Origin: Neorhizobium sp.
Lineage (GTDB): Bacteria > Pseudomonadota > Alphaproteobacteria > Rhizobiales > Rhizobiaceae
Assembly: GCA_028283725.1 (NCBI GenBank)
Contig: JAPWKC010000003.1
Location: 124,001-188,000, forward strand
Length of the DNA: 64,000 bases
Reading direction: 5' to 3'
Under the pieces are notes generated by a model that saw only the letters and a program-made list of their open reading frames with translations, ran no database searches and was not told the DNA's origin. The position numbers were made by a program, and so were the translations under genes. This document shows, in pieces, positions 7,115 through 22,781 of this stretch (position 1 is its first letter; the number at the start of each line of letters is the position of its first letter).

Positions 7115-7422
7115 CCGTATCGCGGTGTGCGGCGGGTGCCTTTCGATGCCGGTCGTCGTCTGGCACGATGTCTGCCCGTCATCTCCCCGGCATGCCGCGG
7201 TGGGCGCTCGGCCGATGCCGTCCGAGGCGAAAAAGACTGGACTTTCAAAGAGCCCTTGGCCGTTTGGCGAAAAGCCGCTAGAAAGTTGCTGCTGCTATAC
7301 GGCAACGGGCGGGATGGAAGTATGAAACCATGCGGACGGGCAGGATGGACTGCCGCGGACGGCTTGCACGCACTATCGGCCCATCGCTTCGGCTCGTACC
7401 GTCCGATGGTCGGGCGGGCTGA
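7115..7422. other. 308-bp intergenic region before the HWE kinase
   Basis: No convincing gene, terminator or consensus promoter is visible. A GGACT-N17-CGTT near 7233-7258 recalls the stress promoter but matches only three of five -35 bases. The short open frames here lack ribosome sites. Confidence 0.5.
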
Positions 7423-9132
7423 ATGATCAGGATTTCGAGGCTTTTTCCGACGGCATCGCTCGGCGCCTATCTGGCCGTGCTTGCGGTCGGGCTTGCGCTG
7501 CCGCTTCTCATTTTCGTCGGCTATCTGATGCTGCAGCTCGAGGATCACGAGCGCGAAACGCTGTCCAACGACACGGCGGAAGATGCCCAGCAGATCGCGC
7601 GTTCGGTGGACCGGGAATTGCAGGACATGGCGACGACGCTGCGCCTTCTGATCGCTTCGCCGGAACTCGGTGCCGGTGATCTGAAGACCTTTCACAACCG
7701 CACGCAGGACAGCCTGCGCTCCAATTCGCTCTATGTGATCCTTGCCGAGCCCGACGGAAAGCTGAAGCTGAACACGCGGGTTCCCTTCGACACGCCGCTC
7801 GGCAAGACGGCGAATATCGCCTCGCTCAACTCGGTCTTGAAATCGGGCGTGACGGAAGTGTCGGACGTGTTCAAGGGCACGACCAGCAATTCCTGGGTGT
7901 TCAACGTCTCGCGCGCATTGCCGCCCGAGCAAAAGGCAGCGGGGGCGGCGATGATCGTCACCCAGAATGCCGAGGACCTGCAGAAGCTGATCTCGACCGA
8001 CGGGCTGCCGGCGGGATGGTCCGCTGCCGTGCTCGACGGGTCCGGCCATGTCGTCACCTCGGCCGGCGCCGACAGGCTGGCGCAGGGCGCCGATTTCGAT
8101 CGCGACACGCTGAAGCTGATGACCGGCTTTCGCGGCACGATCGAGGATGTCTCGGGCGACGAGAAGCAGATGTACGGCTATGCGCAGATTACCGGCTGGA
8201 CCTGGCGCACCGTCGTGTGGGGGCCGATCGCGTCCGCGCAGGCCAGCATCATCACCACATGGCGGCAGCTGATCGCCGGCGGCGTCATCTTTCTCGCGAT
8301 CAGCATGCTGTTTGCCTATTCGATCGCGCGGCAGCTGCGCGGTCCCATCCGCCAGATCGCCGAAATGGCAGAGCGGATCGGCAAGGGCGAGATCGTCTCG
8401 CCGGTCATTACCAAGATCACCGAGGCGAACCAGGTGGCGATCGCGCTTTCCAACGCCTCCTTCGACCGCAGCCAGGCGGAAGACCGTATTCACCTGATGC
8501 TGCGCGAACTGGTGCACCGGACGAAGAATATCCTGACCCTCGTTCAGGCGATGATGCGGCAGGTGGCGCGTCGCGACACGACGATGGAAGAGTTCCAGAA
8601 GGCGATCGGCAACCGTCTTCAGGGGCTCAGCCGATCGATCGAGGCACTGGCGCAGGAGCAATGGGTCGGCGTGTCCATGCGCCGCGTCGTCGAGATCCAT
8701 ATGGATACGTTCGGCGATGTGGCGGAACGGGTGGAGATGGATGGCAGCGATTTCGTCATGAAGGCGGAGGCGGTGCAGAATCTCGGCCTCGTGCTGCATG
8801 AACTGGCGACCAATTCGGTGAAATACGGTGCGCTCTCGGTGCCCGAGGGCAAGGTGCGCGTCAGCTGGACGGATGCGCCGGTGGAGGCGGAGACCGCGGC
8901 CGGCGAACGGCTTCTGACGCTTCTGTGGGAAGAGCGTGGCGGGCCGCCTGTCATCGCCCCCGATCGCTCCGGTTTCGGCACGACGATCATCCAGCGCCAC
9001 GCGGCGGCCGCCTTTTCGGGAAGCGTCGATGTGGATTTCCGGCCGGACGGCCTGCGCTGGACGCTGACCGCCCCGCGCTCGGCTTTCCAGCGGCAGGATG
9101 GCGACGAGGCGCTGCCGGATTACGATCTCTGA
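7423..9132 (+). CDS. Membrane-bound HWE-family sensor histidine kinase
   Basis: A 569-residue sensor kinase. A membrane segment at about residues 12-37 is followed by a long extracytoplasmic sensing region (about 38-280, probably a double-Cache fold), a second membrane segment (about 282-303) and a HAMP-like linker. The kinase core carries the phospho-acceptor His365 in RELVHRTKNILTLVQA, the N-box LHELATNSVKYGALS (458-472) and WEERGGPP (502-509), which together define the HWE/HisKA_2 class. In alphaproteobacteria such kinases often phosphorylate PhyR and so start the general stress response. That fits the stress-promoter cluster that begins immediately downstream, but no PhyR gene is present in the window, so the link is inferred. 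Confidence 0.9.
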   Translation: MIRISRLFPTASLGAYLAVLAVGLALPLLIFVGYLMLQLEDHERETLSNDTAEDAQQIARSVDRELQDMATTLRLLIASPELGAGDLKTFHNRTQDSLRSNSLYVILAEPDGKLKLNTRVPFDTPLGKTANIASLNSVLKSGVTEVSDVFKGTTSNSWVFNVSRALPPEQKAAGAAMIVTQNAEDLQKLISTDGLPAGWSAAVLDGSGHVVTSAGADRLAQGADFDRDTLKLMTGFRGTIEDVSGDEKQMYGYAQITGWTWRTVVWGPIASAQASIITTWRQLIAGGVIFLAISMLFAYSIARQLRGPIRQIAEMAERIGKGEIVSPVITKITEANQVAIALSNASFDRSQAEDRIHLMLRELVHRTKNILTLVQAMMRQVARRDTTMEEFQKAIGNRLQGLSRSIEALAQEQWVGVSMRRVVEIHMDTFGDVAERVEMDGSDFVMKAEAVQNLGLVLHELATNSVKYGALSVPEGKVRVSWTDAPVEAETAAGERLLTLLWEERGGPPVIAPDRSGFGTTIIQRHAAAAFSGSVDVDFRPDGLRWTLTAPRSAFQRQDGDEALPDYDL

Positions 9133-9162
9133 TCGTGATGTGCATCAATCGTTTTCAACCGC

Positions 9163-9188
9163 GGAACGAAGCGGCAGGAATTGCCGTT
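9163..9188 (+). promoter_or_regulatory. EcfG-type (general stress response) promoter of topoisomerase IB
   Basis: GGAAC (9163-9167), 17 bp, CGTT (9185-9188), an exact match to the alphaproteobacterial EcfG consensus. The ATG at 9197 lies only 8 bp after the -10 element, so the transcript would start at or very near the start codon (leaderless or nearly so). Confidence 0.8.
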
Positions 9189-9196
9189 TCTGCGGC

Positions 9197-10252
9197 ATGG
9201 ATGCTGTGCTTCAGACGATCGATATCGATCCGCAATCGCTCAAAACCATCGGCCTCACCTATGTGAGCGACACCGAGCCGGGGATCCGGCGGCTGCGGCG
9301 CGGCAAGGGGTTTTCCTATCGCCTGCCCGATGGCGAACTGCTTTGCGATGACGACGACAGGCTGCGGATCTCGGCACTCGGCCTGCCGCCGGCCTATGAC
9401 AATGTCTGGATCTGCCTTGATCCGCGCGGCCATTTGCAGGCGACCGGCTTCGATGCGCGCGGACGAAAGCAGTATCGCTATCATACGGACTGGCAGCATT
9501 ATCGCAGCGAGCGGAAATTCGACCAGCTTGCCCTGTTCGGCGAAGCGCTGCCGCGGATCAGGCGGCGGGCGGCGCGGGATCTTGCCCTCGGGCTCGACAG
9601 GTCGGACGCGGTTCTGGCGGCGCTCGTGGCGCTTCTCGATGCAACGCATTTGCGGGTCGGCAACCGGCTCTATGCCAAGGAAAACAAGACTTATGGGGCA
9701 ACGACGCTTCTGAAGCGGCACATGGTGGTCGGCAGCGACGGCATTCTGCTGCGGTTCACCGCCAAGGGCGGCAAGCGGGTGCAGCACACGCTGAAACATC
9801 CCCGGCTGCAACGCATACTCGAAGATATTGCCGATCTGCCGGGGCGCCAGCTCTTCTCGTTTCCCGATGAGGCGGGCGTGCCGCATCCGGTCGATTCGGG
9901 CCGGCTCAACGCCTATCTCGCCAGGGCTGCCGGATTTGCCGTCTCGGCCAAGACGTTTCGCACCTGGGGGGGAAGTCTGGCGGCGTTCAACGCGGCGTGG
10001 GAGATCGTGGCCGACGAGGGAAAGCGGCCGAAGATCCAAGCGCTGACCAAGGCCGCCTCCGAGACATTGCACAACACGCCGGCCGTCTGCCGGTCGAGCT
10101 ATATCCATCCGGATATTCTCGATCTCGCGGCCGATATCGCCCCGATCGAGGGCATGATGACAAAGAAGAGCGCAGTGCCGGCCGGACCGCGCGGCTTGAA
10201 GCGCGACGAGCGGCGAATGCTGGCCTTTCTGCAACGGCAGACGGCGGGTTAG
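9197..10252 (+). CDS. DNA topoisomerase IB (poxvirus type)
   Basis: Relaxes supercoils by a transient 3'-phosphotyrosine link. The 351-residue protein shows the family landmarks LRVGNRLYAKENKTYGATTLLKRH (catalytic Arg/Lys region), FRTWGGSLAAF and the nucleophile Tyr in VCRSSYIHPDILD near the C-terminus. ATG 9197 (MDAVLQTIDID) is preferred over upstream in-frame starts because those would lie inside the stress promoter and the preceding kinase gene. It has no Shine-Dalgarno, as expected for a leaderless message. The gene stands alone, converging on the PfpI gene across a strong hairpin. Confidence 0.92.
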   Translation: MDAVLQTIDIDPQSLKTIGLTYVSDTEPGIRRLRRGKGFSYRLPDGELLCDDDDRLRISALGLPPAYDNVWICLDPRGHLQATGFDARGRKQYRYHTDWQHYRSERKFDQLALFGEALPRIRRRAARDLALGLDRSDAVLAALVALLDATHLRVGNRLYAKENKTYGATTLLKRHMVVGSDGILLRFTAKGGKRVQHTLKHPRLQRILEDIADLPGRQLFSFPDEAGVPHPVDSGRLNAYLARAAGFAVSAKTFRTWGGSLAAFNAAWEIVADEGKRPKIQALTKAASETLHNTPAVCRSSYIHPDILDLAADIAPIEGMMTKKSAVPAGPRGLKRDERRMLAFLQRQTAG

Positions 10253-10376
10253 GGGCGCGGCATTCGGGCCCTCGATAAGAACCCACAATCAGCTCCGACG
10301 GTCCAATGCTGCCGCGATGAACAACGAAAGAGAGAATTGTCGCGATCTGGCCGATTGCCGCCCTGCGATACGGCAA

Positions 10377-10408
10377 AGGCTCTCTCCCCGCGTGCGGGGA
10401 GAGAGCCT
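10377..10408. terminator. bidirectional terminator hairpin
   Basis: A perfect 15-bp inverted repeat (10377-10391 and 10394-10408, core CTCTCCCCGC/GCGGGGAGAG) lies between two convergent genes. T-rich stretches are short on both sides (TTCTT on the plus strand, TTT on the minus). Position and stem strength support a shared terminator; it also belongs to the CTCCCC palindrome family seen elsewhere in the window. Confidence 0.7.
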
Positions 10409-10433
10409 GTTCTTAAAATAGATGGTCGGGTCG

Positions 10434-10994
10434 TTACGCCGCGCGGCGTTCGTGACGACCTTCCTCCACCTCTTCGACGATCTTGTCGACGAAGGGGACA
10501 AGATCCTTCGGCGAGCGCGAGGTGATGATGCCATTATCCGTCACCACGGCCTGATCCTGCCATGTGGCGCCGGCATTGCGCAGGTCGGTGCGGATCGAGG
10601 GATAGGATGTCGCCTTGCGGCCGCGCAGTGCATCCGCCTCGACGAGCAGCCATGGACCGTGGCAGATGGCCGCTACCGGCTTGCCGCTCGCCACGAAGTC
10701 TCGCACCACGTCGAGCGCCGTTTCGTCGGCACGCAGCTTGTCCGGGTTGATCTGGCCGCCCGGAAGAACGAGCGCGTCGTAATCGGCAGCGCGGACATTC
10801 TTCGCCTCGATATCCACGGGAACGCTGTCGCCCCAATCGGTCTCGTCCCAGCTCTTGATTTCGCCGGTCTTGATGGAGGCGATCGTCACCTTTGCACCGC
10901 GCTTCGTCAACTCGTCGCGCGGGACACGCAATTCCGACCGCTCATAGCCGTCGGTGGCGAGGATGAGGATGTTTGCGGATTGAATGGACGTCAT
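10434..10994 (-). CDS. DJ-1/PfpI family type 1 glutamine amidotransferase-like protein
   Basis: A 186-residue DJ-1/PfpI-fold protein, a family of stress proteases, deglycases and chaperones. The nucleophile elbow AAICHGPWLL holds the conserved Cys-His, and the acidic partner is in ATDGYERSEL near the N-terminus. AGGAGA lies 8 bp before the ATG at 10994. The closest relatives by motif are the YhbO/PfpI-like bacterial stress proteins. No exact EcfG promoter is visible upstream, although the gene sits among EcfG-controlled genes. Confidence 0.88.
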   Translation of the reverse strand: MTSIQSANILILATDGYERSELRVPRDELTKRGAKVTIASIKTGEIKSWDETDWGDSVPVDIEAKNVRAADYDALVLPGGQINPDKLRADETALDVVRDFVASGKPVAAICHGPWLLVEADALRGRKATSYPSIRTDLRNAGATWQDQAVVTDNGIITSRSPKDLVPFVDKIVEEVEEGRHERRAA

Positions 10995-11081
10995 GTCTAT
11001 CTCCTATGCGTTTTCGTCTTATGGGAAGTTTTTTTCTTCTGGGCATTCGTGGAAGGGGGCGTCGAGCGCATGACGCAGCAC

Positions 11082-11101
11082 ACGGCACTTTGATGTGCCG
11101 T
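11082..11101. terminator. hairpin downstream of the 11202-11399 gene
   Basis: ACGGCAC (11082-11088) and GTGCCGT (11095-11101) form a perfect 7-bp stem with a 6-bp loop, about 100 bp beyond the stop of the minus-strand small gene. There is no clear T-run. Confidence 0.35.
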
Positions 11102-11201
11102 CACGAACAGACCGGATGAAAGATGTGCCTCGGGCACGTTCGGCCCTGAAGGACGGGCCTCACCGCTGAAACCGCGTGTGAGACCCGAGGCGGATGACCG
11201 C

Positions 11202-11399
11202 CTACAGGCGACCCGTCGACAGGTCGCGGCCGTTGATGGAGGCCGGCACGCTGATTTCTTCGCGCGGCGCCTTTGGAAGCGGAAGCAGGACCGCTTCCGG
11301 GACGATTACCCGCAGCTCTTCCGGCCGCTCGACTGCAAACGTCTTTCTCCCGGAACCTCCGGTGAGCCTGTCTCTGAGCATCTTGAAAAATTGGCGCAT
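11202..11399 (-). CDS. Small hypothetical protein (65 aa) behind an EcfG-like promoter
   Basis: A 65-residue basic, soluble protein (MRQFFKMLRDRLTGGSGRKT...) of unknown function. Evidence that it is real: GGGAGAA lies a few bases before the ATG at 11399, and an EcfG-type promoter sits at 11466-11490 in the right orientation, giving a leader of about 60 nt. The N-terminal MRQFFKMLRDRL could form an amphipathic helix; the rest is rich in Pro, Glu and Val with no recognised motif. Confidence 0.6.
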   Translation of the reverse strand: MRQFFKMLRDRLTGGSGRKTFAVERPEELRVIVPEAVLLPLPKAPREEISVPASINGRDLSTGRL

Positions 11400-11465
11400 G
11401 CTGGTTCTCCCGTCGTCGTTTCCATCGCGGGGGACACGGCCTCTTGCCCGTCCTCACAAAGGGCT

Positions 11466-11490
11466 AACCCGACTGAAGGCAATTCGTTCC
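11466..11490 (-). promoter_or_regulatory. EcfG-like promoter (minus strand)
   Basis: Read on the minus strand: GGAAC (11490-11486), 16 bp, GGTT (11469-11466). It differs from the consensus only at the first base of the CGTT element. It is placed about 65 bp upstream of the 65-aa gene start. Confidence 0.6.
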
Positions 11491-11553
11491 AGCAATTTTT
11501 CACGCTGTAAGACTGCGTGAAGTGCCGTCTTTGCCGGGAAAACAGTGCCTGAG

Positions 11554-11604
11554 GCGACACTGACCCTGAAGCGACACCGACCTTGAGCCGACACTGACCT
11601 TGCC
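11554..11604. repeat. three tandem 17-bp degenerate repeats
   Basis: Units at 11554-11570, 11571-11587 and 11588-11604 share the pattern GCGACACTGACCTTGA with one to four differences each. The region is intergenic (11400-11664). It is one of many short degenerate tandem arrays in this window. Confidence 0.75.
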
Positions 11605-11664
11605 GGCGCGCAGCCAGAAGACCGGCCGGCCGGCGGGAGCCATGGTTCCGACGGGCCGCGATCG

Positions 11665-11742
11665 TCAGACCGGCACCACCATCATGTAGCAGACCGCCAC
11701 CATCAGCACGACGCTTGCCGCTTCGATCCATTCCCTGACCAT
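11665..11742 (-). CDS. 25-aa membrane microprotein under an EcfG promoter
   Basis: The frame encodes MVREWIEAASVVLMVAVCYM followed by MVVPV: a short amphipathic start and a single hydrophobic helix of about 17 residues. GGAGG lies 5 bp before the ATG at 11742. An alternative ATG at 11763 would add seven residues (MTGVEAK) but would bury that ribosome site. An exact EcfG promoter (11791-11815) points at it, with a leader of about 40 nt. The size is like small regulatory membrane proteins. Function unknown. Confidence 0.6.
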   Translation of the reverse strand: MVREWIEAASVVLMVAVCYMMVVPV

Positions 11743-11790
11743 CTTTGCCTCCACACCCGTCATAAGCCTCAAGCCTCTCATGTGTCCGAG

Positions 11791-11815
11791 AACGGTGTGA
11801 GCATCGCACGGTTCC
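11791..11815 (-). promoter_or_regulatory. EcfG-type promoter (minus strand) of the microprotein
   Basis: Read on the minus strand: GGAAC (11815-11811), exactly 16 bp, CGTT (11794-11791), a full consensus match. It is followed by the 25-aa microprotein gene and nothing else in that orientation until 11399. Confidence 0.8.
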
Positions 11816-11899
11816 ATGAAATCGCCATGACTGTGTCGGGATTGCCATAAATGTGAACGGGGTGGTGATCGCCGCGTCACCGGCCGGGTCGGATCCTTA

Positions 11900-12250
11900 T
11901 CAGCGCAACTCGGCTTCTGCCCTTGCGCGGGCCGCTTCGAGTATGGCGCGCACCTCGCGGGCGGCGGCATTTTCGATGGCGAAGGCTTCGCCGGGTTCCA
12001 TGCCGGGATCCTCCTCATTGTCCTTGAACGTGGCGCTGTCGCGCAGCTTCTGGACGAAGGCGACGATCGTCGTCTCGCCGCCGATCATCGCCGCCAGCAT
12101 GTCGACCAGAAGCTCGCGGTGAGCGTGGAGGCGGCCTTCCATTTCCTGCGGGGCCAGTGTTGCGCTCATAAAGGGTGCCGCGCCCTGCACATCGCCCGTC
12201 CTGCCGCCCGTCGTGTCGCTGGTCATTCCGGCCGTGATTTCGCTTGTCAT
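11900..12250 (-). CDS. Hypothetical protein (116 aa), Ala/Glu-rich helical
   Basis: An unrecognised 116-residue protein. The first 25 or so residues are Thr/Gly-rich (MTSEITAGMTSDTTGGRTGD) and look disordered. The remainder looks helical (LHAHRELLVDMLAAMIGG and a C-terminal AREVRAILEAARARAEAEL coiled-coil-like tail). ATG 12250 is selected for its GAGGAGA ribosome site. It lies between EcfG-controlled small genes and glgX, but has no exact EcfG promoter of its own. Confidence 0.7.
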   Translation of the reverse strand: MTSEITAGMTSDTTGGRTGDVQGAAPFMSATLAPQEMEGRLHAHRELLVDMLAAMIGGETTIVAFVQKLRDSATFKDNEEDPGMEPGEAFAIENAAAREVRAILEAARARAEAELR

Positions 12251-12407
12251 CTTTTTGATCTCCTCGCGTTCCGGTGCTCTCGCCATAAACTGACAGGGCC
12301 CGTTAGGGAGATAGGGGAAGCATGGCCGGAGGGAACGCGTGCGGCATGAAAATTCGGCCTTGAAGGGGCGTCCGGCACGTGGTTGCCATCTGCTTAACCG
12401 AGGCCAT

Positions 12408-12432
12408 GGAACCAATGCTGTGCTGCACCATT
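12408..12432 (+). promoter_or_regulatory. weak EcfG-like element upstream of glgX
   Basis: GGAAC (12408-12412), 16 bp, CATT (12429-12432): one mismatch from the EcfG consensus, about 47 bp before the glgX ATG. Offered as a candidate only. Confidence 0.3.
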
Positions 12433-12478
12433 ATTGGGGCAGTTCTCAACGGGCGCCGCAAGGCATGGGGTTTAGGCA

Positions 12479-14557
12479 ATGGACATGAAATCGAATAATT
12501 TAGCCGTCGAAGCAGGATCGTGGACCGAGCTTGGCGCCAATTTCGATGGCAAGGGCGTCAATTTCGCTCTGTTTTCCGCCCATGCCGAGCGGGTTGAGCT
12601 CTGCCTTTACGATCCGAGCGGCAAGGTCGAAATCGCCCGGCTCGAGCTGCCCGAATATACCAACGAGATCTGGCATGGCTATGTGCCCGGCCTCAAGCCC
12701 GGCGCGCTCTACGGATTTCGCGTTCACGGCGCCTACGACCCGGAAAATGGCCATCGCTTCAACGCAAACAAGCTGCTGATCGACCCTTACGCGCGCGAAC
12801 TGGTGGGCGATGTGGAATGGAACGAGGCGCATTTCGCCTACGATCTTCTTCACGAGGACAAGGATCTCACCTTCGACAGCCGCGACAGCGCACCGTTCAT
12901 GCCGAAATGCCGGGTGATCGATCCGAATGCCTTCGACTGGAACGACCAGAACCGTCCGAAAATCTCCTGGCCATCGACCATCGTCTACGAGACGCATGTG
13001 AAGGGCTTCACCCAGCTCAATCCGGCGATCCCGCAAAACCTGCGCGGCACGTTCGAGGCGATGGGCCACAAGGCGACGGTGGATTATATCAAGAGCCTCG
13101 GCATTACCTCGGTCGAGCTTCTGCCGATCCACTGGTTCCCGGATGACCAGCATCTGCTCGACAAGGGGCTGAAGAATTTCTGGGGCTACAATTCGCTGGG
13201 CTTCTTCGCGCCGGCCTCGCGCTATTACGGCCCGAACGGCATCCAGGGTTTTCGCGACATGGTACGCGCCTTCCATGACGGCGGTATCGAGGTCATTCTG
13301 GACGTGGTCTATAACCACACGGCGGAAGGCAACGAGCTTGGGCCGACGCTCTCCTTCAAGGGGATCGACAACTTTTCCTACTACCGCACGCTTTCCGACC
13401 AGCATCGCTATTACATCAACGACACGGGCACCGGAAACACGGTCAACACGTCGCATCCGCGGGTACTGCAGCTGGTGACGGACAGCCTGCGCTACTGGGC
13501 CGAGCATATGCATGTGGACGGATTCCGCTTCGATCTCGGCACCATTCTCGGCCGCGAACCGGAGGGGTTCGATCAGCGCGGCGGCTTCTTCGATGCGGTG
13601 ACACAGGATCCGGTCCTGTCGAAGCTGAAACTGATCGGCGAGCCCTGGGATATCGGCCCCGGCGGCTATCAGGTCGGCGGCTTTCCGCCCGGCTGGGCCG
13701 AGTGGAACGACAAGTATCGCGATACGGTGCGCGAATACTGGAAGGGCGACAATGTCTCGACGGATTTCGCCGCCCGTCTGCTCGGCTCGGGCGATCTCTA
13801 CGATCAGCGCGGCCGTCGGCCCTGGGCCTCCGTCAACTTCATCACCGCGCATGACGGGTTCACGCTGAACGACCTCGTATCCTACAACGAGAAGCACAAC
13901 GAGGATAATGGCGAGGACAATAACGACGGCCATAACGACAACCGGTCCTACAATTACGGCGCCGAAGGCCCGACGGAGGACGAGGGGATCGCGGCCGTCC
14001 GCGAGCGGCAGAAGCGCAACTTCCTTGCAACGCTGCTGTTTTCGCATGGCACGCCGATGCTGCTTGCCGGCGACGAGTTCGGCCGCAGCCAGCTGGGCAA
14101 CAATAACGGCTATGCGCAGGACAGCGAAATCTCCTGGGTCCATTGGGAAAACCTGCCGGAGGCTTGCGAGGAGCTGCGCGAGTTCACCCGCCGGATCATC
14201 GCCTACCGCCACGAGCAGCCGCTTCTGCGACGCGAGAACTGGCGTGACGGCATGGATATCAAGTGGTTCAATGCCGGCGGCGGCTTCCAGCAACCCGAAC
14301 AGTGGGACGAGGGCTCGACGCTCGGCGTCTATCTCGGCCGCGGCGACCTGACCGACGAGCCGGGCATCTGGCACGACGTGCTGATCCTGTTCAATCCGTT
14401 CGAGGGCAATGTTCCCTTCCAAATTCCGCAGTTCGGCGAGGGCGGCTGGGTGCTGGAGCTCACCACATGCGACGTCGCCAAGGTGGGCCAGGTGATCACC
14501 AAGGAGAAGGATTTCGAACTGGAAGGCCGCAGCCTGGCGCTGTTCCGCCGGCCGTAA
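12479..14557 (+). CDS. glgX: Glycogen debranching enzyme GlgX (isoamylase-type GH13)
   Basis: Hydrolyses alpha-1,6 branch points of limit-dextrin glycogen. The 692-residue protein has an N-terminal carbohydrate-binding (CBM48-like) region (NFDGKGVNFALFSAHAERVELCLYD) followed by the GH13 barrel. The barrel shows DVVYNHTAEGNE, the nucleophile region DGFRFDLGTILGRE, the acid/base GEPWDIGPGGYQVG and the transition-state Asp in NFITAHDGFTLNDLVSYNEKHN. Length is normal for the family. A GAGGGGAC/GTCCCCTC terminator follows. It lies in the stress-promoter cluster with glgA 0.9 kb downstream on the other strand; glgB, glgC and glgP are not in the window. Confidence 0.95.
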   Translation: MDMKSNNLAVEAGSWTELGANFDGKGVNFALFSAHAERVELCLYDPSGKVEIARLELPEYTNEIWHGYVPGLKPGALYGFRVHGAYDPENGHRFNANKLLIDPYARELVGDVEWNEAHFAYDLLHEDKDLTFDSRDSAPFMPKCRVIDPNAFDWNDQNRPKISWPSTIVYETHVKGFTQLNPAIPQNLRGTFEAMGHKATVDYIKSLGITSVELLPIHWFPDDQHLLDKGLKNFWGYNSLGFFAPASRYYGPNGIQGFRDMVRAFHDGGIEVILDVVYNHTAEGNELGPTLSFKGIDNFSYYRTLSDQHRYYINDTGTGNTVNTSHPRVLQLVTDSLRYWAEHMHVDGFRFDLGTILGREPEGFDQRGGFFDAVTQDPVLSKLKLIGEPWDIGPGGYQVGGFPPGWAEWNDKYRDTVREYWKGDNVSTDFAARLLGSGDLYDQRGRRPWASVNFITAHDGFTLNDLVSYNEKHNEDNGEDNNDGHNDNRSYNYGAEGPTEDEGIAAVRERQKRNFLATLLFSHGTPMLLAGDEFGRSQLGNNNGYAQDSEISWVHWENLPEACEELREFTRRIIAYRHEQPLLRRENWRDGMDIKWFNAGGGFQQPEQWDEGSTLGVYLGRGDLTDEPGIWHDVLILFNPFEGNVPFQIPQFGEGGWVLELTTCDVAKVGQVITKEKDFELEGRSLALFRRP

Positions 14558-14570
14558 GCGAAAGGCGCGC

Positions 14571-14589
14571 GAGGGGACGGCGTCCCCTC
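14571..14589 (+). terminator. terminator-like hairpin after glgX
   Basis: GAGGGGAC (14571-14578) and GTCCCCTC (14582-14589) form a perfect 8-bp stem with a 3-bp loop, 14 bp after the glgX stop. It is followed by GTTGG rather than a T-run. Confidence 0.55.
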
Positions 14590-14680
14590 GTTGGCTGGGC
14601 GATGCCGGCATCGGCGCGCGAGGGGCTTTGCGCCGCTTCGGGGGGCAACACGGCCTTACCTCCTTTGCTCAACACAGTTG

Positions 14681-14722
14681 CGGACGCAAAACCGGTTTCC
14701 CCTTTTGCCGGAATTGCTCTAG
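14681..14722. repeat. dispersed repeat, copy 1 (GCAAAACCG...GGAATTGCTCTAG element)
   Basis: A 42-bp element that starts ACGCAAAACCG and ends GGAATTGCTCTAG recurs at 52836-52878 with few differences. Both copies end 28-52 bp before the start codon of an unrelated gene. It looks like a dispersed intergenic element of the host genome. Confidence 0.65.
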
Positions 14723-14750
14723 TCATCCTTGTAGACGTGCGAGGGTGACG

Positions 14751-15374
14751 ATGAACAACGCCGCCGGACTTTCTTATGTCGAGATTTCGTCGCCGGGCTC
14801 TGATGATCTGGCGCCGCTCATTCTCTTCCACGGCAGCGGCCGCCGGGAGGATGATCTTGTCGATTTCGCCGCCGCTGCCGCACCCGCGCGGCGCGTGATC
14901 GCGCTCAGAGGCGGGGTGTCCCATGATGGCGGCTTCGCCTTCTTCCGTCGCAATCCGGATCGCTCGCTCGACCAAGGCGAGGTTGGCCGCGCCGCAATTC
15001 AACTCGCAGATTTCGTTCGTATCGTTGGCCGTGCGGACGGGCGGGCGCCTGTTCTCGTCGGCTATTCCAACGGTGCGATCGCTGCTGCGGCGCTGCTTGC
15101 TGCGGCACCGGGAGAGTGTGCCGGTGCCGTGCTGATGCGGCCGCTATCTGCCTTTCCAGGCGCCATCCCTGCCGATCTTTCCGGTCATTCCGCCCTGCTG
15201 ATCGCCGGCGCGCATGACGATCGCCGGGCGCCGGGCGATGTTTTATTGCTTGAAGCGCAGTTGCGTGCCGCCGGCGCTGATGTCAGCGCCCATGTGCTCG
15301 ACTGCGGTCACGGCTGGGATCCGGCCGGCGGTGACGTGGAACTGACACGCTCATGGCTTGGCAGGCTCGGGTGA
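14751..15374 (+). CDS. Alpha/beta hydrolase (phospholipase/carboxylesterase-like)
   Basis: A 207-residue single-domain alpha/beta hydrolase. The oxyanion-hole segment ILFHGSGRREDDL, nucleophile elbow VGYSNGAIAAA (Ser in GYSNG), catalytic Asp region LIAGAHDDRRAP and terminal His in LDCGHGWDPAGGD form a complete catalytic set typical of the YpfH/carboxylesterase family. GAGGG at 14741-14745 supports ATG 14751. The gene is single, with a hairpin shared with glgA downstream. The substrate is unknown. Confidence 0.87.
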   Translation: MNNAAGLSYVEISSPGSDDLAPLILFHGSGRREDDLVDFAAAAAPARRVIALRGGVSHDGGFAFFRRNPDRSLDQGEVGRAAIQLADFVRIVGRADGRAPVLVGYSNGAIAAAALLAAAPGECAGAVLMRPLSAFPGAIPADLSGHSALLIAGAHDDRRAPGDVLLLEAQLRAAGADVSAHVLDCGHGWDPAGGDVELTRSWLGRLG

Positions 15375-15381
15375 GGCGGCC

Positions 15382-15411
15382 GATCCTTGGCGGGCGTAGC
15401 CGGCAAGGATC
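15382..15411. terminator. convergent terminator between hydrolase and glgA
   Basis: GATCCTTG (15382-15389) and CAAGGATC (15404-15411) form an 8-bp stem, extended inward by GC pairs, between two convergent genes. Confidence 0.5.
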
Positions 15412-15455
15412 CTGCTGTCGGTTTCCCGCTATCCGTTTCCGGCATGTTCCCGCCG

Positions 15456-16940
15456 TCAGTTGCCGGGGCTGTTTGTGTCGGTCGCCAATTGCCCGTTGCT
15501 GCGCAGAAGGTTCGTATAGACCGAAGCATATTGCTGGGCGCTGCGTTCCCAGGAGAACCGCGCCTTCATCGCCTGGTTCTGCAGGCGCGCCCACATTTTC
15601 GGATCCTCGTAGGCATGGATGGCGCGGCGCAGCGCCAGACGCAGGCCATCGGTCGTGACCGGATGGAACTGCACCCCGGTCGCAACGCGAGCCGACATCG
15701 CCGCGTCATTGGCGTCGATGATGGTTTCCGACAGGCCACCGGTGCGCGAGACGACCGGCACGCAGCCGTAGCGCAGGGCGTAGAGCTGGGTGAGGCCGCA
15801 GGGCTCGAAGCGGGATGGCTGGACAATGGCGTCGGAGCCGGCGTGGATGAGGTGGGCGGTCGGCTCGTCATAGCCGATATGCACCGACATGCGGCCGGGG
15901 AAACGCTGCGCGGTGGCCAGCAACTGCGCCTCGATCGCGTGGTCGCCCTGGCCGAAGACGATTACCTTGCCGCCCTTGAAGATCACTTCGTCGGCGGTAT
16001 CGGCAAACATGTCGAACCCCTTCTGCCATGTGAGGCGGCTGACGGCGGAAAACACCGGGCCGTCATCCATGTCGAGGCCAAAGCGCTGCAACAGCACCGT
16101 CTTGTTGTCGCGCTTGCGTCTCAGCGTCGACACGTCGTAATTGCGCGGCAGATGCGGGTCGGTCGCCGGATCCCAGATGTCGAGATCGATGCCGTTGACA
16201 ATGCCGCGCAGAACCGAGACGCGCTCGTTCAAAATGCCGTCCATGCCCATGCCGAAACGCGGGGTCAGAACCTCGCGGGCATAGGTGGGGCTGACGGTGG
16301 TGATGGCGTCGGCCATCTGCAAGCCGCCCTTGAGGAAGCTGATATCGCCGAAATATTCCATGCCGTCCATGGCGTAGAGAGAGCTCGGCAGGCCGATCAG
16401 CGGCAGCACGTCGGCGCCGTACTGTCCCTGGAAGGCGATGTTGTGAATGGTGATGACGCTCGGCATGTCGATGCCCATATGGCGCAGGTAGACCGAGGTC
16501 AGGGCCGATTGCCAGTCGTGGGTGTGGATGACGTCGGGCCGCCAGCCGGGGATGAGACCGCCGCCGATCTCGGCCGCCGCCTTCGAGAGCGCGGCAAAGC
16601 GGCGCCAGTTGTCCGGGTGGTCGGTGCCATCCGCGTCGACATAGGGGCCGCCGGGACGATGGTAGAGTTCCGGCGCATCGAGAACCAGAAGGTTGAGGTT
16701 GTCGATACGCACCTTGAGGATCACCGCATGGGTGCCGAGCAGATCCTCGATCGTCGCCACCCGTTCAGGTGCCGGATCGGCCTCGGCCAGCTGGCGCATG
16801 ACCTGCGGATAGCCTGGAATGAGCGATGTCGTCTCGACGCCGAAGGGTTCCAGCGCCTTGGGCAGCGAACCCGTCACGTCTGCGAGGCCGCCCGTCTTGA
16901 CCAGGGGGAAAATCTCCGAGGTTACGGACAGCACTTTCAT
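15456..16940 (-). CDS. glgA: Glycogen synthase GlgA (ADP-glucose type)
   Basis: Transfers glucose from ADP-glucose to the glycogen chain. The 494-residue GT5 enzyme begins [22 protein letters not shown], where KTGGLADV is the ADP-glucose-binding signature. HTHDWQSAL and the C-terminal [23 protein letters not shown] with the catalytic Glu are intact. ATG 16940 is chosen by family alignment; a longer frame back to 17054 has no support. The C-terminus carries a short extra tail ([13 protein letters not shown]). Unlike the usual rhizobial glgPBCA-pgm arrangement, it stands without other synthesis genes. Confidence 0.94.
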
Positions 16941-17245
16941 TTCAGGAACATCCCCGTTTCTGCAGACAACCGGCGCGGTTTTCTCTACGCGGCGCAGTCG
17001 CGGAGGGACGAGTTTTTCCAGAAAGACAGGCGGGGATGTGTGGGTGTTCATCAAGGCTTTCTCCTCCGCTCGGCCGTTGCATCATGGAGAACGCAGATCT
17101 TCGACGCCCTGTCGTCAGGAAATATCGGGGCCGCCGTAGAATTGAACGCTAAAGCCATTGACCGTCCTAGCTAAAACATAGGTTTTTGCGCGGCGGAAAA
17201 ACCGCCGCGCCATATGCGTGCCCAACAGGCGCTCTTTAAAAAGGC
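16941..17245. other. 305-bp region upstream of glgA
   Basis: No gene is supported. It contains a perfect 9-bp stem (GCGCGGCGG at 17188-17196, CCGCCGCGC at 17202-17210) with an A5 loop, preceded by T5 on the plus strand. The glgA promoter is not evident by eye. Confidence 0.45.
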
Positions 17246-17272
17246 AAGGCCGCCGCGAATGCGGGCGGCCTT
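17246..17272 (-). terminator. terminator of the DUF2934 gene
   Basis: AAGGCCGCC (17246-17254) and GGCGGCCTT (17264-17272) form a perfect stem. On the minus strand it is followed by GCCTTTTTAAAG, a T-run typical of intrinsic termination. It overlaps the stop of the minus-strand gene ending at 17271. Confidence 0.7.
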
Positions 17273-17603
17273 ACGATGCGGTCGCGAGTTTCTTGCTCTT
17301 CTTGCGCGGGGCGGCCTCGCTCTTGGCGGCCGCTGCGGCAGGCTTGGTGGCCGATGCCACCGGCTTCTTGGCCGCCGGCGCCTTGGCAACAACTTTCGCC
17401 TTCACGGGTTTTTCCACCGCGTCAGACTTCGGCGCCTTAGCCTTCGCAGCCTTGGCGGGTTTTTCACCGGCCACGGGCTTCAGCGTGACGAATTCGAGTT
17501 TCGCCCGCTCCCAATGTTCATGATCCTTGCCACTGGGATAACCCTCCTCCTCCCAGAGCTCGTAGGCACGTCGCTTGATCCAGTCTTCGTTGGAATCCGC
17601 CAT
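17271..17603 (-). CDS. DUF2934 protein with Ala/Lys-rich tail
   Basis: A 110-residue protein. The N-terminus DWIKRRAYELWEEEGYPSGK (about residues 7-26) is a DUF2934 domain. The rest is a low-complexity Lys/Ala/Pro tail (KPAKAAKAKAPK, AAKKPVASATKPAAA) like the histone-H1-like tails of nucleoid-associated proteins. ATG 17603 has GGAG 6 bp upstream; the longer start at 17657 would lie across the EcfG promoter (17631-17655) and is rejected. The exact promoter match makes it a probable general-stress gene. DNA binding by the basic tail is an inference. Confidence 0.82.
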   Translation of the reverse strand: MADSNEDWIKRRAYELWEEEGYPSGKDHEHWERAKLEFVTLKPVAGEKPAKAAKAKAPKSDAVEKPVKAKVVAKAPAAKKPVASATKPAAAAAKSEAAPRKKSKKLATAS

Positions 17604-17630
17604 CTTCGTCTCCATTCGCCCAATCGCCCA

Positions 17631-17655
17631 AACGGGCCCGTTGCGAAAAAGTTCC
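17631..17655 (-). promoter_or_regulatory. EcfG-type promoter (minus strand) of the DUF2934 gene
   Basis: Minus strand: GGAAC (17655-17651), 16 bp, CGTT (17634-17631), exact consensus. The predicted transcription start lies about 20 bp before the ATG at 17603. Confidence 0.82.
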
Positions 17656-17718
17656 ACTGAAAATCACCGGCCGCCATTCGTGATGAAGAGCGGGTCTTTC
17701 CATTCCATCCAGCCGGGC

Positions 17719-17743
17719 GGAACTTTTGTGGGAGATACGCGTT
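17719..17743 (+). promoter_or_regulatory. EcfG-type promoter (plus strand), divergent
   Basis: GGAAC (17719-17723), 16 bp, CGTT (17740-17743), exact consensus, divergent from the promoter at 17631-17655. The next well-supported gene starts at 17951, so the transcript would have a leader of about 200 nt. Confidence 0.75.
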
Positions 17744-17950
17744 TGAAAGCGCCCGGGTGGCGACGCTGCAGTGCAAAAGGTACTGCGAGAATCGCTCCTG
17801 CGCAACCGGCCGTTTCACCGGAAATCAGGGCCAGACGACGATTTGGCCCGATCCAAAGACAGGCGGGAAAACAAGGCAGTGCCGGAACGCTCCGGCATCG
17901 CCCGGTTTACCCCAAAAAGCCTGCAGGCATCATGAATAAGGGAGAGAAGC

Positions 17951-18280
17951 ATGCAGGACAGGATGAAGATCTACCGGCTTGTTCCGGCGATCGCCGAAAA
18001 CGATCCGAAAGGGCGCAATGCCATGGCGCAGGGCGAAATCGTGGTGAGGGCAAAGACTGCGGTCGACGCCCGTGCCGTGGCAAGCGATGCCGATATCGAT
18101 TTTTCCGGCATCGACGCAACACATGCCCGGAGAAACCTTGCCGAACTGGCACGCGCGTTCCGCAGCGAGACATCCTACAGCGTGATCGAGGATCGCAGCG
18201 GCCGCTATGTGCCGAACGGCCCGCGTTGCGTCATCGAGGGCGGCGTGCGCCTCGACCGACCGGTGTCGACGCAGCTCTGA
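17951..18280 (+). CDS. Conserved hypothetical protein (109 aa), probable stress gene
   Basis: A 109-residue soluble protein (MQDRMKIYRLVPAIAENDP...GEIVVRAKTAVDARAVASDA...YSVIEDRSGRYVPNGPR). It resembles a family of short uncharacterised proteins I associate with rhizobia, with a KIYRL start and a DSGRY motif; no function is known to me. GGAGAG lies 6 bp before the ATG. An exact EcfG promoter lies upstream (17719-17743). No catalytic motif or membrane segment is seen. Confidence 0.72.
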   Translation: MQDRMKIYRLVPAIAENDPKGRNAMAQGEIVVRAKTAVDARAVASDADIDFSGIDATHARRNLAELARAFRSETSYSVIEDRSGRYVPNGPRCVIEGGVRLDRPVSTQL

Positions 18281-18286
18281 TTGCCG

Positions 18287-18400
18287 GCCTCCGGTCTCCG
18301 GTTGCCGATCGCAAGTTGCCGATCACCAGTCGTCGGTCTCCAATTGTCGGTCTCCGGCGGCTTGCCGGTCGCCGTTTCTGCCGGCCGCCTGCTTGCCAGT
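18287..18400. repeat. degenerate short repeats (GTTGCCGAT / GTCGGTCTCC units)
   Basis: The stretch after the 109-aa gene is built from imperfect, roughly 12-13 bp units such as GTTGCCGATCGCA, GTTGCCGATCACCA, GTCGTCGGTCTCC and ATTGTCGGTCTCC. It shows no gene and no clean hairpin. It accounts for most of the 262-bp gap to 18543. Confidence 0.55.
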
Positions 18401-18542
18401 TGCGGGGGGACGTCTGCGAGCAATCGATCCCCGACCATATCTGCGACGATGCGGGGCTGGCTATCCGCGCAGTTGCCTGCATGAATCGTTGCCTGGCTGA
18501 ATGGTTGTTTAGGTGACTGGCTGCGTCTTATGCCGGTCCGGC

Positions 18543-18728
18543 TCAGCCGCCGGTGTTCTCCGCGTCGCCCTTGTCACCGAGTGCCTTTTGAAGGTCGAGC
18601 GCCGGTTTCAGCAGCCGATCGGGCACGGCTTCCTTTTCGATCTCGGTCATGAGAACCGAAACCTTGCGGTTTACCCGCCGTCCTATCCGTGTCTCGACTT
18701 GCGCATCGGGCGCCTGTTTTTTCGCCAT
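18543..18728 (-). CDS. NepR-like anti-sigma factor candidate (61 aa)
   Basis: A 61-residue protein: MAKKQAPDAQVETRIGRRVN, then KVSVLMTEIEKEAVPDRLLK, then PALDLQKALGDKGD. The order of IGRR, a helix, E-x-VPDR-L-L and a second Leu-rich helix matches the NepR pattern (IGxxLR..., EPVPDRFLDLL...). NepR proteins sequester EcfG sigma factors until phosphorylated PhyR binds them. It lies 0.8 kb from the ECF sigma gene, on the opposite strand and separated by a 72-aa gene, which is not the usual nepR-ecfG operon. The assignment rests on a short motif, so it is moderate. Confidence 0.5.
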   Translation of the reverse strand: MAKKQAPDAQVETRIGRRVNRKVSVLMTEIEKEAVPDRLLKPALDLQKALGDKGDAENTGG

Positions 18729-18916
18729 CTGGACCTCTGACCCATCGCTTCGGCACGTCTTTCAGCCCGACCGGAGTGCGGCGGCAGGGCGGTGCACGAT
18801 CCAGCCCGTTTCGTCTGTCTTACAGCAATCGGAATGCGTGCAGGTATTCCGAAAAAGTCACGCCGACCGAAAAAAGTGCCGTTCAAGGGCGGCAGATACG
18901 GCCCTGGTTCAACGAC

Positions 18917-18949
18917 AACGGGCGCTTTCCTATCCGGAGAGCGCCCGTT
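18917..18949 (+). terminator. plus-strand intrinsic terminator with no obvious upstream gene
   Basis: AACGGGCGCT (18917-18926) and AGCGCCCGTT (18940-18949) form a perfect 10-bp stem followed by TTGTT on the plus strand. The flanking genes (18543-18728, 19000-19218) are both on the minus strand, so the terminator may end an unannotated plus-strand RNA. Confidence 0.55.
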
Positions 18950-18999
18950 TTGTTCCAGATCCGATGCGGTTTTTGCCGTTTCACGCAGAGCAAACCGGC

Positions 19000-20057
<1,058 letters not shown>

Positions 20058-20153
20058 GCGGCGTCTCGCGGAGCGTCAGGCAGCGGGCCTTGCGACCGGA
20101 CAGGATCTTTCGAACGGCAAGCATTTTTAAGATGTAGCGAGTATCATGCGGAG

Positions 20154-20176
20154 GCCGCCATGAAATGTATGGCGGC
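20154..20176. terminator. hairpin after the sigma factor gene
   Basis: GCCGCCAT (20154-20161) and ATGGCGGC (20169-20176) form a perfect 8-bp stem with a 7-bp loop, followed by TTAA, about 100 bp after the sigma stop and 21 bp before the next start. Confidence 0.45.
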
Positions 20177-20197
20177 TTAACCCTTCAGGATACTCCC

Positions 20198-20693
20198 ATG
20201 CGAAAAATAATCGCTCTGGCGTTGCTTGCAGCCGCATTCCCCGTGCTTGCCCACGCCAAAACCATCAAGTTCCCAAGCGAAAAGCCGATCGCCAGCATCA
20301 CCATCCCGAACAGCTGGGAGCCGGAGGAGACGGAAAGCGGCGTGCAGGGGACTTCGCCCGATAGCGCCGTCTATCTTTCGGCCGATGTGGCCAGCACCAA
20401 GTCGATCGAGAAAGTCAGCGGCGATGCGGTCGATTTCCTCACCAAGAACGGTGTGACCATCGACCCCAAGACCCAGAAGGAGACGCCGATCACCGAGGTG
20501 AACGGCAATGCAGATGACGACGCTCGAATGGGACGGCAAGGATGAGGACGGCCCCGTCAGCGTCGGCCTGCTCTTCGTCCAGACGTCCGGCAATCGCGCG
20601 CTCGTCGTCACCTACTGGGGCAGCAAGGGCGACGAAGACAAGCATGACAGCGAGGTCAAGGCGATTATCGGCTCGATCAAGCCGGTCAACTGA
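20198..20693 (+). pseudogene. Secreted hypothetical protein, frameshifted
   Basis: The gene starts MRKIIALALLAAAFPVLAHA with a good signal peptide, cleaved at AHA-K, and continues through ITIPNSWEPEETESGVQGTS and SADVASTKSIEKVSGDAVDF. Near 20503-20508 the frame must change by one base to continue as MQMTTLEWDGKDEDGPVSVG and LVVTYWGSKGDEDKHDSEVK, ending at 20693 (IIGSIKPVN). Together the halves make one periplasmic protein of about 164 residues. The original frame runs only a few more codons. It is either a recent frameshift or a one-base sequence error (an extra A in GGCAATGCAG). Confidence 0.7.
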
Positions 20694-20856
20694 CAACATC
20701 GCGATGCGGCGGGGATGGCGTTTTCGCCGTCTCCGCCGATACGGCAAATCTCATCGACCTGGCCTGCATCACCGCCTTGATCATCACCGCGTTGTTCCAT
20801 GGCCAAAGCGCGGCCGAAGCCTCAATCGAGCAGGCCGGTGCCGGGCATCCGATGGC

Positions 20857-21600
20857 TCAGTCGGGGTCCCGATCGAGTTCCGGATAATGGCGGAAGATGC
20901 CGCTCTCGTTGAAGGCAAGCCTTCGATCCGAGGCGAGATAGGCCGCAATCCGCGGCCGCTGTCTCACTTCGTCGCGCAGAGCGGCCACATTCGGATAGAG
21001 GCGATCGAAATCGGCCATGGCACGCGGGAAAGCGTAGCCTAGCCCTTCGGCAATCTGGAAAATCGACAGATCGACATAGGTGAAGCTGCGGCCGATCGCG
21101 TGGCGTTCTTCGCCCTTTGCCTGGCGATCATCGGATGATGCCAGAAGACGGTCGAAATAGCCGATGAATTTCGGCACCCGGTGCTTCAGAAACGCTGTCG
21201 TGCGCGCCTTTGCCTCCTCCATCTGATCCTCGTAATAATCTGCCGTGCTGATCGGATGGTGCGTGTCATGCACTTCGGCGACGAAATCCGTGATCGTCAG
21301 CTGCAGGCCGAGGGCGTCCAGCCGCAGCGTTTCGTCATCCGGCACCAATGCAAGTTTCGGCGCCAGATAATGGAGGATGTTGGCGACATGCGAGACGATG
21401 CGCTCGCCATCCTTCAGAAAGGGAGGCGCGAAGGGCGGGACGGCTCCACCATCGGCGCCCTTCAGGCAGGACATCATCCTGTCCATGCCGCCCGGCTCGC
21501 GCACCACGTCGCGATAGTCCGCGCCGGCATCTTCGAGCGCAAGGCGGATAAACTCGCCGCGGCCCTGCAGTCCATCCCAGTAGAAAAGTTCGTAGGGCAT
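20857..21600 (-). CDS. Glutathione S-transferase family protein
   Basis: A 247-residue GST. The thioredoxin-like N-domain begins MPYELFYWDGLQGRGEFIRL, with Tyr/Arg in the positions typical of the sigma/mu-like bacterial GSTs. It continues to the cis-Pro region PPFAPPFLKDGERIVSHVAN, where Ser-His binds the glutathione gamma-glutamyl group. The helical C-domain (SFTYVDLSIFQIAEGLGYAF) is complete. Start at 21600 fits the family. The likely role is detoxification of electrophiles; the substrate is unknown. It lies next to a BON protein at the edge of the stress cluster. Confidence 0.86.
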   Translation of the reverse strand: MPYELFYWDGLQGRGEFIRLALEDAGADYRDVVREPGGMDRMMSCLKGADGGAVPPFAPPFLKDGERIVSHVANILHYLAPKLALVPDDETLRLDALGLQLTITDFVAEVHDTHHPISTADYYEDQMEEAKARTTAFLKHRVPKFIGYFDRLLASSDDRQAKGEERHAIGRSFTYVDLSIFQIAEGLGYAFPRAMADFDRLYPNVAALRDEVRQRPRIAAYLASDRRLAFNESGIFRHYPELDRDPD

Positions 21601-21649
21601 GCCTGTTTCCCTGTAGGTGTCGTTGGTATCGGTGCGCTGTCGGAAAGGC

Positions 21650-21946
21650 TCAAAGGCCGCGGCTGGGTTGCGGCTCGACAGCCCTGATGGCGTTCCTGAC
21701 CTCGGTGACGCCGGCGATCGCGGCCGCCACTTCTGCCGCACGCGCCACTTCCTGCGGATAGAGAACGGTGCCTGTCAGCGTGACCACGGATCCCTCCGCC
21801 ACGACCGTGACATGCGCCGCATCGACGCCGCCCGCAATGCCCAAGGCGTCGGAGACGGCGATCTCGAGCGTCGCCTGCGGCGGGTATTCGCCATCCATGG
21901 CCGGCGGCGCCTCGTGAAATTCCCGGTTCTTGTAGACCATCGTCAT
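21650..21946 (-). CDS. BON-domain protein (98 aa)
   Basis: A single BON domain occupies most of the 98 residues: EIAVSDALGIAGGVDAAHVT, then VVAEGSVVTLTGTVLYPQEV, then ARAAEVAAAIAGVTEVRNAI. This is the OsmY-type fold of stress-linked proteins that bind membranes or small ligands. No signal peptide is seen, so the protein is probably cytoplasmic. A variant EcfG promoter (TGAAC-N16-CGTT) lies upstream at 21977-22001. It is separate from the GST gene by 49 bp in the same direction. Confidence 0.85.
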   Translation of the reverse strand: MTMVYKNREFHEAPPAMDGEYPPQATLEIAVSDALGIAGGVDAAHVTVVAEGSVVTLTGTVLYPQEVARAAEVAAAIAGVTEVRNAIRAVEPQPSRGL

Positions 21947-21976
21947 TCTCCCGGTCTCTGGTCGGTGTTCCTATCA

Positions 21977-22001
21977 AACGCGCGAGACGAGCCAAGGTTC
22001 A
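21977..22001 (-). promoter_or_regulatory. variant EcfG-like promoter upstream of the BON gene
   Basis: Minus strand: TGAAC (22001-21997), 16 bp, CGTT (21980-21977): a single mismatch at the first base of the -35 element and correct spacing, about 30 bp before the ATG at 21946. Confidence 0.45.
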
Positions 22002-22021
22002 TGACGCAGCGGTTGCATTGC

Positions 22022-22072
22022 TTGACAGATGGCGGATTTCGAATTATGACTGACGAAAATTGAAAAACGTCA
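22022..22072 (+). promoter_or_regulatory. promoter and candidate TetR operator
   Basis: TTGACA (22022-22027), 17 bp, TATGAC (22045-22050) resembles a sigma-70 promoter for the TetR gene. Just downstream TGACG (22051-22055) and CGTCA (22068-22072) form an inverted repeat with a 12-bp spacer, as expected for an autorepressing TetR operator. Confidence 0.5.
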
Positions 22073-22097
22073 CTAATTATTCGAAAGCTTGGCATCC

Positions 22098-22700: not shown

Positions 22701-22781
22701 AGACAGACAGACCGGCTGGGCCTGACGAGCGGGGCGCTCGCAAACCAGCCATACCTTCAACGACGACGAGGAGTGGGGACG

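Follow-up and report, generated by a model that had tools for sequence, protein, structure and literature searches.

In the alphaproteobacterial general stress response (GSR), the systems closest to the one analysed here are those in which a canonical EcfG-type sigma factor is accompanied by a non-canonical one. For Sinorhizobium meliloti, the available part of Lang et al. 2018 (PMC6180224) presents rpoE5 as a target of RpoE2 with an RpoE2-dependent promoter, and points to an unannotated open reading frame (ORF) opposite SMb21687, similar to RsiA1/RsiA2, whose significance it leaves open; a NepR-like neighbour is thus already in print for one species. For Rhizobium etli, the available part of Jans et al. 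2013 (PMC3892343) describes a canonical and a non-canonical EcfG that act in parallel, gives the EcfG1 motif as GGAAC-N16-CGTT, and calls the control of EcfG2 by NepR unclear. We report here a related locus of Neorhizobium sp. (assembly GCA_028283725.1), located in a 64,000-nucleotide stretch that was analysed as a whole ('the window': contig JAPWKC010000003.1, or C2, positions 124001-188000; plain coordinates below are those of the window). A non-canonical EcfG-type sigma gene (EcfG2, RpoE5-like; 19497..20057, forward strand, GTG start) stands there in an island of genes with GGAAC-N16/17-CGTT promoters, and a NepR-like protein of 61 amino acids (aa), sm61, is encoded nearby on the opposite strand (18543..18728). 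Our reading, which sequence comparison makes reasonably probable, is that this region serves the alphaproteobacterial GSR as a conserved outpost around this second EcfG, and that EcfG2 is probably restrained by sm61.

The rpoE5 locus of S. meliloti resembles the island in several respects: a non-canonical ECF15 sigma (ECF, extracytoplasmic function) lies behind a GGAAC promoter, tail-to-tail with a NepR-like ORF (PMC6180224), and relatives of the 65-aa, 115-aa and FPASDP genes of the island are found nearby, some with exact motifs. The sm61-sigma pair is present on pSymB, where the sigma gene was identified as rpoE5 by its match to the published promoter (PMC6180224). The two loci also differ. 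The S. meliloti sigma is about 52% identical to the window sigma and is not its neighbour in the sigma tree; exact sites are fewer there (two in 24 kb); and in the window a DUF2934 gene, glgX, glgA and a gene for a 25-aa peptide are clustered with the rest. As for R. etli, the shared feature is the presence of both a canonical and a non-canonical EcfG.

The window sigma carries ECF sigma regions 2 and 4 (Sigma70_r2 and r4_2, both over cut-off), and resembles known EcfG proteins more than it does other ECF sigmas, its deep placement in the tree being unsure. Its best match in the PDB, at E 8.7e-35 (the next being 1.2e-21), is the sigma 5uxx_A from a sigma/NepR entry. Within its own genome the closest protein is the canonical EcfG (43% identity, E 2.9e-36), followed among the matches listed by another ECF sigma at 34% (E 2.2e-22). 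The PhyR_sigma2 domain was over cut-off, as it was in the other ECF sigmas of the genome, and therefore does not identify an EcfG. The canonical locus itself, with PhyR (C2:193573), NepR (C2:193236), the canonical ecfG adjoining NepR and an HWE kinase downstream of PhyR, lies outside the window, about 50 kb from the island, so that the window sigma is a second EcfG. This locus (C2:190043-195991) also has a Crp-type regulator and a weak match to DUF883. The island shares its promoter type with the canonical locus, and differs from it in having no PhyR and no operon that joins the NepR-like gene to the sigma gene.

This arrangement speaks against the original prediction of a self-contained stress module. 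The locus has no PhyR of its own; phyR, nepR-ecfG and another HWE kinase are 50 kb away. In the assembly, no PhyR was found outside the canonical locus and no other NepR exceeded the Pfam cut-off, a weak indication of absence given the stated completeness of 78% (4 contigs); the remaining PhyR-type matches were to sigmas that lack a receiver domain. The same pairing of sigmas is found in the genus. Our sample consisted of the 20 kb around the sigma gene in each of 23 congeneric genomes (444,552 bases in total; two regions, L126 and L142, are shortened by contig ends); judged by named loci, the group resembles Neorhizobium and its near relatives. The window sigma was present in all 23 at 80-87% identity; in one congener (G016, C1:539076-539580) the gene appeared broken, tblastn giving two hits that overlap. 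In 19 of the 23 congeners, a canonical-type EcfG (about 43% identity) and the window-type sigma share a contig, separated by 33-65 kb; in the remaining 4 they are on different contigs. Thinning reduced the 109 sigma rows to 74, from which a tree was built. The genome's own canonical EcfG pairs in it with S. meliloti RpoE2, apart from the window sigma, which groups with its congeners and with other named loci.

Six exact GGAAC-N16/17-CGTT matches had been announced for the window, at 9163 (+), 11791 (-), 17631 (-), 17719 (+), 19258 (-) and 19373 (+). All were found again, with no others in the 64 kb. Across 100 dinucleotide shuffles, the mean was 1.14 exact matches per 64 kb, and six or more were never reached. 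Each of the six points at an ORF start, as had been claimed, with two caveats of distance: the 17719 site lies about 207 bp from the start of the 109-aa gene, where the exact sites of congeners stand 33-69 bp away, and the 9163 site ends 8 bp before the topoisomerase IB start used, which is uncertain. Three near sites had also been proposed. The one at 11466 (-), GGAAC..GGTT, does have a single mismatch; those at 12408 (+), GGAAC..CATT, and 21977 (-), TGAAC..CGTT, had been ranked as weaker; they too differ at one position. The spacer is 16 bases in all three.

Could such a cluster arise by chance from a lax, short motif in GC-rich DNA? The genome-wide count speaks for this: the bare motif occurs 84 times in 4,078,552 bases, compared to 90 for a reversed-pattern control, and so carries little information alone. 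Its local density is another matter. When 84 sites were placed randomly, six or more fell within 10.3 kb in only 5 of 20,000 placements. A second cluster, of 4 sites in 6 kb, was found at the canonical GSR locus (C2:190043-195991); with the island sites removed, its density was matched in 330 of 20,000 placements. As to the density check that had been suggested, the bare motif is not enriched over the genome, and an equal density elsewhere does not hold for the island cluster, the cluster at the canonical locus apart. A sharper form of the motif could be drawn from 95 conserved exact sites, in which the positions after GGAACN are A/T-rich. This form, GGAAC-N-W-W, is enriched in the genome (28 matches compared to 6 for the control), and 5 of the 28 are inside the island; the sixth island site, that of the 25-aa gene, does not fit it. 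It exceeded the control in all four congeners tried, least so in G017 (30 compared to 21). A spacer-based score derived from the conserved sites separated the island sites poorly (-4.0 for the 25-aa gene site, -1.2 for the topoisomerase site).

Conservation at orthologous genes argues further against chance. Exact sites were counted within 300 bp upstream of congener gene starts projected from tblastn alignments, which makes the site-to-start distances approximate; 37 motif-context stretches (L144-L180) were left out of every count. The congener regions contained 133 exact sites, compared to 8 for the reversed control. An exact promoter precedes the start of the 25-aa gene by 28-41 bp in all 21 orthologues (window site 11791..11815, -), and one precedes the FPASDP gene in 22 of 22 (19258..19283, -). 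Upstream of the sigma gene (19373..19398, +), the site is exact in 20 of the 23 congeners and one mismatch away in 2; for the DUF2934 gene (17631..17655, -) the figures are 17 and 6 of 23, and for the 109-aa gene (17719..17743, +) 10 and 3 of 13. The topoisomerase IB promoter (9163..9188, +) is exact in 5 of 8 orthologues. The variant sites are kept in their variant form: at the 65-aa gene (11466..11490, -), 10 of 11 orthologues have one mismatch and 1 an exact site; at glgX (12408..12432, +; GGAAC-N16-CATT), 18 of 22 have one mismatch and 1 is exact, the -10 being mostly CATT or CTTT across congeners; at the BON gene (21977..22001, -; TGAAC-N16-CGTT), 12 of 16 have a one-mismatch site, mostly TGAAC, no further than 300 bp away. 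The CATT of glgX is also that of the printed rpoE5 promoter of S. meliloti (PMC6180224).

Being kept at orthologous genes in the congeners, the exact sites are predicted to behave as promoters, in line with the original prediction. The scan statistic and this conservation lead us to reject chance, which we regard as hardly credible, and to hold the cluster almost certainly real. Most of the island promoters are very probably controlled by EcfG proteins.

Not every gene of the region contributes. The glgA gene (15456..16940, -; Glyco_transf_5; 23 of 23 congeners) has an exact site upstream in 10 and a one-mismatch site in 7 of the 23, mostly 126-183 bp away and often without the A/T run, and for these reasons its sites were not counted and no EcfG site is claimed for it. 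The 115-aa gene has few sites (exact in 4 of 22 orthologues), and the PfpI gene has no exact and four one-mismatch sites among 11. Left out of the case were a glutathione S-transferase-like gene (one-mismatch site in 7 of 14 orthologues) and three genes with few or no orthologues in the 23 regions (O_sec 0, TetR 2, abhydrolase 1).

The presence of a NepR-like gene, also part of the original prediction, was borne out: sm61 is real, and very divergent. It was found in all 23 congeners, and sub-threshold matches to the Pfam NepR family were obtained for 21 of these copies (34 such rows were tabulated, a part of the full set). Pfam alone fails to assign the window copy, and the relation shows only when profiles are compared. 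Two sets of sm61 rows (A3, 30 rows; A4, 20 rows) were picked by hand from the copies found. With hhalign, sm61 aligned to true NepR with a probability of 90.6% (P 1.3e-6), or 88.9% (P 2.4e-6) with the broader alignment, over 36 gapless columns. Among 30 diverse sm61 members, 12 matched Pfam NepR (best E 0.00068), the only Pfam family matched by more than two of the 30; an NCBIfam search of the copies gave nothing recurrent. In a profile search of the PDB (177,635 sequences), the top two matches were NepR in both sm61 searches. NepR proteins have two helices broken at a conserved VPxR turn. The AlphaFold model of sm61 has helices at 8-32 and 37-59 with the break at a VPDR turn (predicted local distance difference test 80.5, predicted template modelling score 0.39).

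The link between sm61 and the sigma extends well beyond the genus. Within it, sm61 is always on the strand opposite to the sigma gene, 0.5-6 kb away. In a family sample of 151 genomes, sm61 was found in 19 and the sigma (E 1e-45 or better) in 31. Outside the genus, the sigma was present in 12 of 16 genomes with sm61, compared to 16 of 132 without (Fisher p 2.4e-7); sm61 lay within 7 kb of a sigma matching the EcfG2 profile in 12 of the 16 (one a weak match, E 5e-30; one cut by a contig end). Two of the 16 (L218 and L220) hold most of the island: glgX, DUF2934, the 65-aa gene, FPASDP, topoisomerase IB and BON. We also considered 80 named loci, the best of 459 and so not a random sample. At E 1e-5, 50 of them had sm61, comprising all 19 genus-like loci and 31 of the 61 others; in 23 of these 31, sm61 followed the sigma gene at no more than about 1 kb, on the other strand. 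Linkage is clustered on the sigma tree, with 12 changes compared to 24 in shuffles, none of 500 being as low. The pair is also present in Mesorhizobium and Sinorhizobium, often tail-to-tail; on plasmid pB2-1-8 of Mesorhizobium sp. B2-1-8, sm61 is annotated as a hypothetical protein and adjoins the sigma gene. A literature search of open-licence PMC papers, in which absence is weak evidence, returned no description of such a neighbour as a conserved family. The wide conservation of sm61 is the addition made here.

These linkage data bear on two other explanations. According to the first, the island genes are nothing more than ordinary canonical-EcfG targets, the second sigma amplifies weakly, and its control does not involve sm61. 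It agrees with what the available part of PMC6180224 says of S. meliloti, where RpoE2 activates rpoE5 and overexpression of RpoE5 gave one putative target, and with Caulobacter SigU, which the available part of PMC4814048 describes as amplifying mildly and not binding NepR. The S. meliloti data also leave without support the earlier claim that the sigma autoregulates, even though an EcfG-type promoter is present in front of the gene. Against this explanation, sm61 stays beside the sigma in Mesorhizobium loci in which few or no other island genes were found, and we think it unlikely. The second explanation makes sm61 a NepR decoy that binds phosphorylated PhyR and damps the whole response, without acting on the sigma. 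It has a precedent in Methylobacterium extorquens: in the available part of PMC4814048, three NepR homologues showed no EcfG binding in two-hybrid assays, and two of them bound PhyR with no sigma seen bound. The conserved neighbour of sm61, however, is the second sigma, whereas PhyR is 50 kb away in the same genome, and we consider a decoy improbable. That sm61 acts on EcfG2 is, on linkage and homology, a proposition towards which we lean only slightly.

Several results weigh against our reading. On the side of the sigma, S. meliloti RpoE5 falls on a separate branch, not adjoining the window sigma; the R. etli p42f sigma falls in the canonical group; and 19 of 71 inner branches of the tree are open, long branches are flagged and the deep order is weak. 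The tree thus gives no orthology with RpoE5, and the label 'RpoE5-like' rests on shared neighbours. On the side of sm61, the window protein has no match in Pfam or NCBIfam, none of the congener copies reaches the curated Pfam NepR cut-off, the PDB matches are not significant alone (E 0.03-0.05), and a fold search with the model gave no match. The window copy of sm61 has no EcfG promoter, and sites upstream of sm61 are rare among the 23 congeners (exact in 2, one mismatch in 2). Nor is the pairing universal. In 4 of the 16 non-genus genomes, no EcfG2-profile sigma was found near sm61 in the stretch taken (one being at a contig end); 30 of the 61 non-genus named loci had no sm61 at E 1e-5; and no sm61 was detectable from about 15 kb upstream to 20 kb downstream of the EcfG-like sigma gene on R. 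etli p42f, which we take, by its position and gene number, to be EcfG2. The small yield of RpoE5 overexpression and the M. extorquens two-hybrid results count on the same side.

If the island is nevertheless an outpost with its own restrained sigma, its operation may be pictured as follows, by analogy with the family. Stress signals would reach the canonical PhyR/NepR/EcfG switch 50 kb away, and the freed canonical EcfG would open the GGAAC-N16/17-CGTT promoters of the island, those of topoisomerase IB, glgX, the DUF2934 and BON genes and several genes for tiny proteins. It would also switch on the second sigma, as suggested by the conserved promoters and by the activation of rpoE5 by RpoE2 in S. 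meliloti. The second sigma would then probably add to the response or branch it, and sm61, encoded nearby on the opposite strand, would probably hold EcfG2 in check, as its homology and conserved linkage suggest. The products, through topoisomerase IB, the metabolism of glycogen or of trehalose precursors via GlgX, and the small proteins, may aid survival under stress.

Of the genes behind these promoters, several are small and uncharacterised, in line with the original prediction. The 65-aa protein (11202..11399, -; C-terminal end VPASINGRDLSTGRL) occurs in 11 of 23 congeners, and the 25-aa hydrophobic peptide (11665..11742, -) in 21; the latter has a GGAGG stretch resembling a ribosome site, a possible alternative upstream ATG at 11763, and no match in Pfam or NCBIfam. 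The 72-aa FPASDP protein (19000..19218, -), named after its conserved motif, is encoded divergently from the sigma gene, occurs in 22 of 23 congeners and likewise matches neither database. The 109-aa protein (17951..18280, +; 13 of 23 congeners) is preceded by a leader (17745-17951) that is longer than in congeners and has a strong predicted RNA fold (z -3.83); it is possible that this is an EcfG-driven small RNA or a long leader. No second copy of 17745-17935 was found in the genome, and no Rfam family reached its gathering score within 7000-23000.

The larger or better known products are DNA topoisomerase IB (9197..10252, +, start uncertain; Topoisom_I and Top1B_N_bact), the isoamylase-type glycogen debranching enzyme GlgX (12479..14557, +; CBM_48 and Alpha-amylase; 22 of 23 congeners), the DUF2934 protein (17271..17603, -; PF11154, 43.7 bits; 23 of 23) and the BON-domain protein (21650..21946, -; PF04972, 43.9 bits). 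In the available part of a study of Sphingomonas melonis (PMC6599016), topoisomerase IB is tabulated among the EcfG-regulated genes, its site being GGAAC..CATT; glgX is confirmed as EcfG-dependent and classed as a putative indirect target. The HWE histidine kinase that had been noted in the island is present (7423..9132, +; HWE_HK 70.3 bits, over cut-off); its Cache-like sensor domain scored below cut-off (dCache_1, 27.2 bits compared to 45), and it was found in 6 of the 23 congener regions. Downstream of the sigma gene, a secreted-protein ORF (20165-20693) looks split, with a frame change near 20520 separating a 126-aa ORF from a 61-aa ORF in another frame; either a sequencing error or a genuine break could account for this. 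In the 23 congener regions, tblastn found nothing matching the first part of this ORF (20195-20545).

The island provides a conserved training set for EcfG promoters, with 95 exact sites and a sharper motif in which A/T follows GGAACN, and it also yields a 25-aa peptide gene that has an exact promoter in each of the 21 congeners possessing it. The literature leaves open how extra copies of EcfG are controlled, and a conserved, linked NepR-like family offers a concrete candidate partner. Many rhizobia may carry a second partner switch, made of a dedicated, divergent and mostly unannotated NepR (sm61) and an EcfG2/RpoE5 sigma, often tail-to-tail, a proposal that we see as evenly balanced on present comparisons. 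If true, such a switch would explain both the apparent silence of a sigma of this kind when overexpressed and its running in parallel with the canonical response.

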